Assembly (NCBI GenBank): GCA_027451865.1
Contig: DAIDHW010000001.1
Coordinates: forward strand, 496,353-560,352
DNA from: Leptolyngbyaceae cyanobacterium clean351
GTDB lineage: Bacteria > Cyanobacteriota > Cyanobacteriia > DAIDHW01
Direction of reading: 5' to 3'
Length of the DNA: 64,000 nucleotides
A model generated the notes under the pieces. The model saw only the letters and a program-made list of their open reading frames with translations. It ran no database searches and was not told the DNA's origin. The position numbers and the translations under genes were made by a program. Positions 12,115-15,571 of the stretch are shown piece by piece; position 1 is the stretch's first letter, and every line of letters begins with the position of its first letter.

Positions 12115-12211
12115 ACGATCAGGTATAAGTGCTGTAGCGGACCATTTGGCCGGAAAGTCCGGATTAGATCGAAAATTGGGTGTAGGATTGCAGAGAATGA
12201 GGAGTGAACTG

Positions 12212-13096
12212 ATGAATTTGCACCGCGACGCAATGGAGATTCTGGCGGAGACGAGCCGGACATTTTACATTCCCATCAGCCGGCTTCCCGATGGTCTTCG
12301 AGAAGGGGTAGCCTCGGCATACCTGTGTATGCGGGCAATCGATGAAATTGAAGACCATCCGGACTTGGATAATCTTACGAAGGCGAAAGTCCTCCAATCC
12401 TTGAGCTTTGCTCTCCAGGCGATTGATGGCAGTCAGATCGGCACTTCCTGGTCGGATGGAGATGCCCTAGATTGGTTGTCTGGGGGAGCCTTAGCTGGCC
12501 TTGAGAGCATTAAAACCACTTGGCAAGAAATTACCCGCCACAAAACTCCCCTCCCTGAAGTGACCCTGCGGATTGGTGATTGGGCTCGCCTAGCTCCGGC
12601 TAGTATTGCCCCACGGATTTGGGATGCGACTGCTGCCATGGCCGACCGGATGGCCAGTTGGTCTGGTCAAAACTGGAAGATCCGCACCGAATCTGACCTG
12701 GACCGCTATACCTTTAGTGTGGCCGGTTCCGTAGGACTGGTTCTGTCTGACCTGTGGGCTTGGTATGATGGTACCCAGACCAACCGCGTCCAAGCAGTGG
12801 GTTTTGGCCGCGGTTTGCAGGCAGTGAATATCCTGCGCAACCACCAGGAAGACTTGGCTAGGGGGGTTGACTTTTTCCCCGACGGTTGGGCTGACGCCGA
12901 CATGCACAACTATGCCCGGCGTAACCTCACCTTGGCAGATGCCTACACAGCTTCCCTGCCCGCCGGACCTGCCCTGACCTTCTGTCAGATTCCCTTGGCC
13001 TTAGCCCATGCCACCCTTGATGCCCTAGCGCGCGGCGAGCAGAAACTAACTCGCAGCGCCGTGATGGCCCTAGTGGAGCAAGTGACCTGCCAGTAG
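12212..13096 (+). CDS. Squalene/phytoene synthase family protein, probable squalene synthase
   Basis: Head-to-head prenyl synthase, predicted to join two farnesyl or geranylgeranyl diphosphates. Two aspartate-rich metal-binding motifs are present: AIDEIED near residue 51 and NHQEDLARGVDFF near residue 213, following GRGLQAVNILR. The ATG at 12212 is chosen because GGAG lies 7 bases upstream and the product (294 residues) then starts as the family does; a TTG start at 12146 would add 22 residues. The hpnK gene begins 4 bases after its stop, and that hopanoid-associated partner favours squalene over phytoene as the product. Confidence 0.8.
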   Translation: MNLHRDAMEILAETSRTFYIPISRLPDGLREGVASAYLCMRAIDEIEDHPDLDNLTKAKVLQSLSFALQAIDGSQIGTSWSDGDALDWLSGGALAGLESIKTTWQEITRHKTPLPEVTLRIGDWARLAPASIAPRIWDATAAMADRMASWSGQNWKIRTESDLDRYTFSVAGSVGLVLSDLWAWYDGTQTNRVQAVGFGRGLQAVNILRNHQEDLARGVDFFPDGWADADMHNYARRNLTLADAYTASLPAGPALTFCQIPLALAHATLDALARGEQKLTRSAVMALVEQVTCQ

Positions 13097-13100
13097 CGCT

Positions 13101-13940
13101 ATGACTAGTAGTCTTGCAACCCAACGCCGTTTGGTGGTGACAGGGGATGACTTTGGATTTTCTCCCCAGGTAAACCAAGGAATTCTCCAGGCTCATCTCC
13201 AGGGGGTCTTGACTAGTGCCAGCCTGATGGTAACTGGCGCCGCGGTTGAAGAGGCTGTCGAGTTAGCCCACCGTCATCCTAGTTTGGCTGTGGGCCTGCA
13301 CCTAGTACTGACCCAAGAGAAGGCAGTGCTCCCGCCAGAGCAGATCCCTCACCTGGTCAACCCCGAGGGATATTTCAACGCTTCCCCCTTGGTGGCCGGG
13401 TTGCGCTACCAGTTCGTCCCCCAAGCTCGCCAAGAACTATCCTGGGAAGTGCGTGCCCAGCTAGAAAAATTCCGCCGGACTGGGCTGCCCCTGTCCCATG
13501 TAGACGGCCATATGCACCTCCATTGCCACCCGGTGGTCCTAGATATCCTGGCTCAGGTAGCGGGAGAGTTTGGGATCCGGGTAGTCCGGCTGCCCCTAGA
13601 GGAGGTGCCCTGGGAATCGGGCTTGTGGTTGCCAGACCTGCTACTGGGAAAAATATTTGCCCGGCTACGCCGCCACGGGGAAAAGATTTTTGGATCTCAA
13701 GGAGTACGCTTAGCTGATCGAGTCTACGGTCTGCAAGCCACAGGGCGCATTAATGAAGCCTATCTGTTAGACCTAATCCCCCGGCTTCAGGGGGACTTGA
13801 TTGAGGTCTATACTCATCCCGCCCTCGGCCACCCGGCCGCTGGGGAACATGAGCTGCTTGCCCTCGTGAGCGAACGCGTGCGGGCCACCCTTGAGGGCCA
13901 CGGGTTTGCTCTAACCAACTTCCTGGAGGCTGTCCTCTGA
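13101..13940 (+). CDS. hpnK: Hopanoid-associated YdjC-like deacetylase HpnK
   Basis: A 279-residue member of the YdjC/ChbG carbohydrate deacetylase superfamily. VTGDDFGFSPQVNQGI carries the metal-binding aspartates, with GLHLVLTQ and SHVDGHMHLHCHPVV supplying the histidines. The arrangement fits HpnK, a protein found beside hopanoid genes in many bacteria but of undemonstrated function. It follows the squalene synthase-like gene by 4 bases and its TGA overlaps the probable CTG start of mutL. Assignment to HpnK rather than another YdjC homologue rests on the motifs and the neighbour. Confidence 0.8.
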   Translation: MTSSLATQRRLVVTGDDFGFSPQVNQGILQAHLQGVLTSASLMVTGAAVEEAVELAHRHPSLAVGLHLVLTQEKAVLPPEQIPHLVNPEGYFNASPLVAGLRYQFVPQARQELSWEVRAQLEKFRRTGLPLSHVDGHMHLHCHPVVLDILAQVAGEFGIRVVRLPLEEVPWESGLWLPDLLLGKIFARLRRHGEKIFGSQGVRLADRVYGLQATGRINEAYLLDLIPRLQGDLIEVYTHPALGHPAAGEHELLALVSERVRATLEGHGFALTNFLEAVL

Positions 13941-15571
13941 GGGAGATCACCCCTCTGCCGATAGAACTGGTATACCGAATTAGCGCAGGGGAGGTGATAA
14001 ATTCTCTGGCCGCGGTAGTCCGGGAACTAGCGGAAAATGCCCTGGATGCGGGAGCTCATCGGGTAACCATTGACCTGTGGCCACAGGCTTGGCGGGTCCG
14101 GGTAGCCGACAATGGGCAAGGCATGGCCCGGGCAGACCTACACCAGGCTGCGGTTCCCCATGCCACCAGCAAGATTCGTACAGAGGCAGACCTGAGACGA
14201 GTTACTACCCTAGGCTTTCGGGGACAAGCCCTCCACAGCCTAGCTAACCTGGGTCAGCTGGAGGTGTGCAGCCGTCCTGAGGGGGGGGAGGGCCACCAAG
14301 TCATCTACGATCACCAAGGGCAAGTGAGCGCCATCAGGGGAATAGCCATGGCCCCTGGTACTATTGTTACCGTCGACGACCTGTTTGCCCCCTGTCCCCA
14401 GCGACGGCCAGGAAATCCTCACCAGGCTCTCCAAGGGGTCCAGGAGGTCATCCAAGCCCTAGCCCTTTGTTATCCCCAAGTGGCCTGGCAAGTGCGCCAC
14501 CAGGACCGGCCCTGGCTGAGTCTGTGGCCGGCGGACTGCGCCCACCAGATCCTCCCCCAAGTCCTGCGCCGGCTGCAGACTGATGACTTGAAGCGGGTAT
14601 GCCTGCGACCCGAGCCCCCCACCCCGGTAGAGGGGCCTTGGGAGCTTGAGTTGGTGATGGGCCTACCGGAGCGCTGCCATCGGCACCGGCCAGACTGGGT
14701 GAAGGTAGCTGTCAATCAGCGCCTGATCCAGAGCAGTGAACTAGAGCAAACCCTTTTGGCTAGTTGCCGCCGGACTCTGCCCCGCGGTCGCTTCCCGGTT
14801 TGTTTTCTCCATTTGCGGGTACCTCCGGAGACCGTCGATTGGAATCGCGACCCAGATAAAGCCAGGATTTACCTAGACCACCTAGAGTACTGGCAGGAGC
14901 AAGCCCACCGAGCCATCGGCCAAGTCCTCGCCGGACAGCTGTCTGAACCTGCCCAGACGCGACAACTAGGGCGGATCCTCCAGGTAGCCGAAGCTGGCAG
15001 CACCTACCAGGTCTCCCCTCCTACTCCCCTTGGTCGCCTGCGGGTTCTAGCCCAAGTGCACAACACCTACCTCCTAGCGGAACATCCCGGGGGGGTCTGT
15101 CTAGTAGAGCAGCATATTGCCCACGAGCGGGTACTCTACGAACAGATTCAGGCTCATTGGCGACTGGTCCCCTTGAGCGCACCCCTGCTTCTAAGAGACT
15201 TATCTCCTCCCCAAGTGGAGCGGCTGCTGGAGTTGGGATTGGTAGTAGAACCCTTTGGTGAGCAGACGTGGGCAGTGCGGACGGTCCCGGCACTGTTGGA
15301 GGGACATCAAGACCGGGGGGAAGTGATCAGGGAATTGGCCATGGGCGGAGACCTAGAGGCTGCCCAAGTCACCCTAGCTTGCCGCAGCGCGGTACGCAAT
15401 GGCGCACCCCTCACCCACGAGCAAATGCAGACCATCCTAGACCAGTGGAGCCAGACCCGGGATTCCCGTACCTGTCCCCACGGCCGACCCATTTGCCTGA
15501 ATTTACCGGAAACTGCCCTGGCTCAGTTTTTTCGCCGTCCCTGGTTAATCACTAGGAGTCATCCTCCCTAA
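13937..15571 (+). CDS. mutL: DNA mismatch repair protein MutL, apparent CTG start
   Basis: MutL links mismatch recognition to strand incision. The GHKL ATPase domain shows ISAGEVI, VRELAENALDAG (about 29-39), ADNGQG (57-62) and GFRGQAL (93-99, where GFRGEAL is usual). The C-terminal domain has EQHIAHERVLYE in place of the usual DQHAxxER, then ACRSAVRNG and CPHGRP, so an endonuclease-type MutL is likely. The first ATG, GTG or TTG in frame is the GTG at 13994, which would delete the conserved ITPLPIELVYRISAGE segment. CTG at 13937 keeps it, has GGAGG 7 bases upstream, and forms a CTGA overlap with the hpnK stop; 544 residues. Confidence 0.9.
   Translation: MREITPLPIELVYRISAGEVINSLAAVVRELAENALDAGAHRVTIDLWPQAWRVRVADNGQGMARADLHQAAVPHATSKIRTEADLRRVTTLGFRGQALHSLANLGQLEVCSRPEGGEGHQVIYDHQGQVSAIRGIAMAPGTIVTVDDLFAPCPQRRPGNPHQALQGVQEVIQALALCYPQVAWQVRHQDRPWLSLWPADCAHQILPQVLRRLQTDDLKRVCLRPEPPTPVEGPWELELVMGLPERCHRHRPDWVKVAVNQRLIQSSELEQTLLASCRRTLPRGRFPVCFLHLRVPPETVDWNRDPDKARIYLDHLEYWQEQAHRAIGQVLAGQLSEPAQTRQLGRILQVAEAGSTYQVSPPTPLGRLRVLAQVHNTYLLAEHPGGVCLVEQHIAHERVLYEQIQAHWRLVPLSAPLLLRDLSPPQVERLLELGLVVEPFGEQTWAVRTVPALLEGHQDRGEVIRELAMGGDLEAAQVTLACRSAVRNGAPLTHEQMQTILDQWSQTRDSRTCPHGRPICLNLPETALAQFFRRPWLITRSHPP

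Follow-up and report, generated by a model that had tools for sequence, protein, structure and literature searches.

Putative CTG initiation of mutL at the hpnK stop codon of a cyanobacterium, and proposed non-canonical mutL starts in other cyanobacterial lineages

Non-canonical start codons in described systems

Inefficient start codons outside ATG, GTG and TTG are used, under IF3 discrimination, by infC (ATT, ATC or ATA) and pcnB (ATT). The cyanobacterial mutL gene described here, for which a CTG start is proposed, resembles them as a chromosomal housekeeping gene that would start outside the three usual codons, while it differs in having CTG instead of ATT or ATC and in that autoregulation of mutL is not expected. 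In two further cyanobacterial genera (g94 and g81), mutL apparently shares the AT[TC] codons of infC and pcnB.

Streptomyces sigR starts with GTC and is repressed by IF3, as experiments have tested, and its gene pair is reported to be translationally coupled (PMC5472188). It would have a rare start and a strong Shine-Dalgarno (SD) sequence in common with mutL, although mutL follows its partner gene, hpnK, and its start is proposed here from sequence. Extended SD motifs also accompany the starts of cvfC1 (AUU) and ccpN (AUA) in S. aureus, which were mapped by ribosome profiling and reporters (PMC13009471); the combination of a weak start with a strong SD is the same as in mutL, and the genes and codons are different. 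Among bacterial starts, CTG accounts for 0.024%, and CUG yields 0.86% of the product of AUG in E. coli (PMC11497404). Of the reconstructed AUG starts, 3.2e-5 had switched to CUG and 1.6e-5 to AUU, and there is a genome-wide tendency for weaker start codons to be accompanied by stronger SD sequences (PMC5622118). Because start prediction is built on ATG, GTG and TTG, non-canonical starts seldom come to notice (PMC5472188). In the literature searched, we found no paper that connects mutL to a start of this kind.

The hpnK-mutL junction and its candidate start codons

The window, i.e. the whole stretch of 64,000 nucleotides that was analysed, carries hpnK on the plus strand (13101..13940), which encodes a YdjC-like hopanoid-associated protein (TIGR03473, 264 bits with a cut-off of 232.6; PF04794) and has a squalene/phytoene synthase-like gene on its 5' side (12146..13096, plus strand; PF00494, E 9e-25). 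The stop codon of hpnK is TGA at 13938-13940. The mutL frame on the same strand opens at 13895, directly after an in-frame TGA (13892-13894), and the sequence agrees with the original prediction that it contains no ATG, GTG or TTG before the GTG at 13994..13996. The proposed start codon, CTG at 13937..13939, gives a mutL CDS of 544 aa plus stop (13937..15571, plus strand; NF000951, 758 bits with a cut-off of 391; TIGR00585) and, as had been claimed, overlaps the hpnK stop by 4 nt as CTGA (13937..13940). Direct reading of 13925..13929 gave the GGAGG that was said to lie exactly 7 nt ahead of this CTG, with a duplex energy of -9.3 kcal/mol, for which the general bacterial anti-SD was assumed. 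An SSU match search of the window's genome, a draft of 48 contigs, found no 16S gene.

The junction had also been likened to ATGA and GTGA overlaps elsewhere in the window, of which the GTGA part stood and the ATGA part did not at the ORF size examined. Among ORFs of at least 100 aa there are three NTGA overlaps, namely CTGA 13937 and two GTGA on the minus strand (44179 and 60296), and none is ATGA. The hpnK-mutL pair has the 4-nt overlap in common with these two, and differs from usual NTGA stop-start pairs in carrying C as its first base, where those have A or G. As an estimate of chance, 29 of the 2,939 CTG triplets in the window (about 1%) have GGAGG 5-9 nt upstream; an SD motif of the GGAG/GAGG/AGGA kind is found for 8 of the 32 other window genes. 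With a start position homologous to that of its relatives (residue -16 from AGEV, within the homologous start zone), an SD and no good alternative, CTG 13937 is a well supported, though unproven, start of mutL, and we put the probability that mutL is translated from it at about 0.75.

The alternatives downstream can be judged against the protein. The profile match to NF000951, above the curated cut-off, pairs residues 17-556 of the open frame with positions 4-557 of the 559 in the model; NF000951 position 4 falls on codon 13943 and TIGR00585 position 1 on codon 13946, and solved MutL structures align from the conserved-Ile region where these two matches begin. As the first usual codon, GTG 13994 is the one that a scan for ATG, GTG and TTG would choose, but it codes for the V of SAGEVI, and the MutL shortened in this way would drop 19 residues with the conserved IxxLP segment, would be cut within the AGEV motif and would miss REITPLPIELVYR. 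Across the class, the residues upstream of this GTG show conservation at the protein level, and solved structures contain them, in line with the earlier view that starting there would cut into the ATPase domain, and we give this start hardly any chance. ATC at 13946..13948 encodes the conserved Ile at -13, which is TIGR00585 position 1, and ATT/ATC starts of mutL are proposed for g94 and g81; nevertheless, GGAGG is 16 nt off and AGGGAG directly adjoins, neither being well spaced, and the Ile at -13 of the relatives is internal, after their start. Initiation at this ATC is very unlikely. CTG at 13955..13957 stands behind AGGGAG (13940-13945) with a spacer of 9 and an SD energy of -7.1 kcal/mol, yet the GGAGG of CTG 13937 is the stronger SD, the protein would lose positions 1 to 3 of TIGR00585 along with the conserved Ile at -13, and relatives start further upstream, mostly at -14 to -19, which leaves CTG 13955 a highly improbable start. 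Among the near-usual start codons, CTG 13937 has the best placed and strongest SD.

Two other ideas were rejected for the junction. A possible RNA hairpin covering the SD, the CTG and the hpnK stop (13919..13945, plus strand; -13.4 kcal/mol) does not exceed shuffled sequence in stability (z -0.25), and was on this ground dismissed as a regulatory element. A frameshift from hpnK into mutL would need a -1 shift, and no X XXY YYZ heptamer was found by eye in the hpnK frame between 13895 and 13940.

mutL starts in other cyanobacteria

We compared mutL genes of cyanobacteria from orders other than that of the window, counting start positions in residues from the A of the AGEV motif. In the start zone from -30 to -12 of 208 distinct mutL regions, ATG is present in 172, GTG in 11, TTG in 13 and none of them in 12. 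The ATG lies at -17 in 100 of the 172 and at -16 in 23, and mostly between -14 and -19. L038 (genome G007), which is the nearest relative found for the MutL of the window, also has ATG at -17; its mutL is split over two frames (L038:1489-3175; ORFs of 477 aa and 156 aa), perhaps by a frameshift or a draft error. For Planktothrix and a relative (L032-L036), L097 and L102 (genus g144), mutL probably starts from TTG at -16, and some of these also have an in-frame ATG at -24. In the genomes of family f2 (1.6-3 Mb), the MutL match is absent or very weak. For the control gene mnmE, 65 genomes gave ATG in 59, GTG in 4 and TTG in 1, and the apparent gap in L326 has an ATG further upstream, with which all 65 have a usual start.

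Candidate non-canonical starts are concentrated in a few groups. In g94, mutL has ATT or ATC at -19 behind AGGGAG, CAGGAG or CAGGAAG in all 6 readable genomes (L127 and L129-L133; in L128 the SD is masked). ATT and ATC swap between species, and most of these regions have no ATG, GTG or TTG in the start zone; L132 has an additional GTG (-25), which lies on the 5' side of the SD. In g81, a genus with 28 species in our set, AT[TC] at -26/-27 follows GGAG or GAGG at a distance of 8-10 nt in 19 of the 21 readable species (L274, L275, L277-L280, L282, L283, L285 and L288-L297), while the remaining two (L272 and L273) have ATG and no SD. The AT[TC] species carry ATG, GTG, TCT or CCC at -30, and others TTG at -33, upstream of the SD; in L278 and L297, mutL has no usual start at all. 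The spacing upstream of AT[TC] varies by 1-2 bases among species, which breaks the upstream frame, and therefore coding is expected to start at AT[TC] or further downstream. AUU and AUC are the likely mutL start codons across the genus. Within the leader (-40 to -26), AT[TC] is invariant, and a conserved GCAGTAGCAT-like stretch lies further upstream. The three species of genus g153 (L147, L151 and L154) have ATT ATC at -21/-20 and neither a usual start nor an SD; their putative start position is less sure because no SD stands at the proposed codon. AGGGAAGG is found further upstream in these three. L172 (G099), which has no near start beside a repeated stretch and has an ATG at -55, was left out as a non-canonical case.

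The SD sequences also differ with the start codon. Of 161 ATG-started mutL genes from cyanobacteria, only 9 have a suitably spaced GGAG, GAGG or AGGA, and the median duplex energy over the 161 is +0.3 kcal/mol. The SD of CTG 13937 (-9.3 kcal/mol) is stronger than those of 160 of the 161, and the energies range from -4.3 to -7.2 kcal/mol in g94 and from -5.6 to -9.3 kcal/mol in g81. When each lineage is counted once, an SD is present in 3 of 4 non-canonical groups versus 9 of 161 (Fisher p 0.001), and in a fairer test, accepting an SD 5-10 nt before any in-frame ATT, ATC or CTG, 6 of the 161 ATG-started genes have one by chance (p 0.0004); these p-values are a guide only, as there are few lineages, the 161 genomes share relationships, and the SD partly served to pick the AT[TC] codons of g94 and g81. 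In the MutL tree, in which many deep forks are weak, g81, g94 and g153 each occupy one side of a branch, the window and the groups stand apart from each other, and the neighbours of the non-canonical groups are mostly ATG-started. Most regions without a usual mutL start are not scattered errors.

These groups bear on whether the CTG of the window is itself an assembly or sequencing error, with A, G or T as the true base at 13937 and a usual NTGA overlap. The window comes from a single draft genome of 48 contigs with no detected 16S gene, and a one-base change would yield an ordinary ATGA. Against this, the hpnK and mutL frames are intact and end and start where expected, and whole genera elsewhere have mutL without a usual start, hence such a gene is biologically possible; we regard a base error as unlikely. 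What counts against CTG 13937 as the start is again the single draft genome, besides the rarity of CTG among bacterial starts, the ordinary stability of the hairpin, the ATG of the nearest relative (L038) and the fact that no other gene of this genome is known to start non-canonically, since its infC has an in-frame ATG.

MutL output and mutation control

The MutL of the window is divergent but intact, without stop or frameshift. Its matches to PF13589 and PF01119 (ATPase-type N-terminal) and to PF08676 (MutL_C) are over the cut-off, while in an alignment of 114 MutL proteins from cyanobacteria its branch is long (0.8) and it deviates at 13 near-invariant columns. At GFRGQAL (14213-14233) it has Q where 96.5% of the relatives carry E, and at 15107-15142 it has EQHIAHERVLYE at the site of the endonuclease motif. 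Mismatch repair looks complete because the genome also carries MutS-type genes, with two MutS_V matches over the cut-off (one with 282 bits).

If mutL is translated from CTG 13937, the strong SD (GGAGG, spacer 7) would hold the 30S subunit on a CTG that the initiator tRNA reads poorly. Ribosomes finishing hpnK at the overlapping TGA would probably contribute, through reinitiation or the opening of local structure, and the product would be an intact 544-aa MutL in small amounts. We infer this initiation, its low yield, the coupling and any control by IF3 from the features of the junction. A low MutL output is plausible because CUG yields 0.86% of AUG and weak mutL starts are proposed in other lineages, and coupling of mutL to hpnK would fit the 4-nt overlap.

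In the mutL of the window, the first ATG, GTG or TTG falls within a conserved motif, and the gene looks like one instance of a loss of the usual start that has recurred in cyanobacteria, usually with a strong SD. Non-canonical mutL starts of this kind appear to recur in separate lineages, with g81 and g94 as the strongest cases. CTG starts, and switches from AUG to CUG or AUU, are very rare, and therefore their recurrence in one gene of separate lineages is unexpected. It speaks for selection that favours weak initiation of mutL and suggests that weak translation of a mutation-control gene evolved more than once. More tentatively, mutL may have repeatedly and independently swapped ATG for a codon rejected by IF3 (CTG in the window; ATT or ATC in g94, g81 and perhaps g153) and gained a strong SD, with MutL output and mutation rate tracking initiation fidelity or the level of IF3, which we hold to be possible but doubtful.

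The recurrent pattern across cyanobacteria is a more valuable result than the CTG of the window. If the selection is true, mismatch repair and the mutation rate would be tied to the control of translation initiation.
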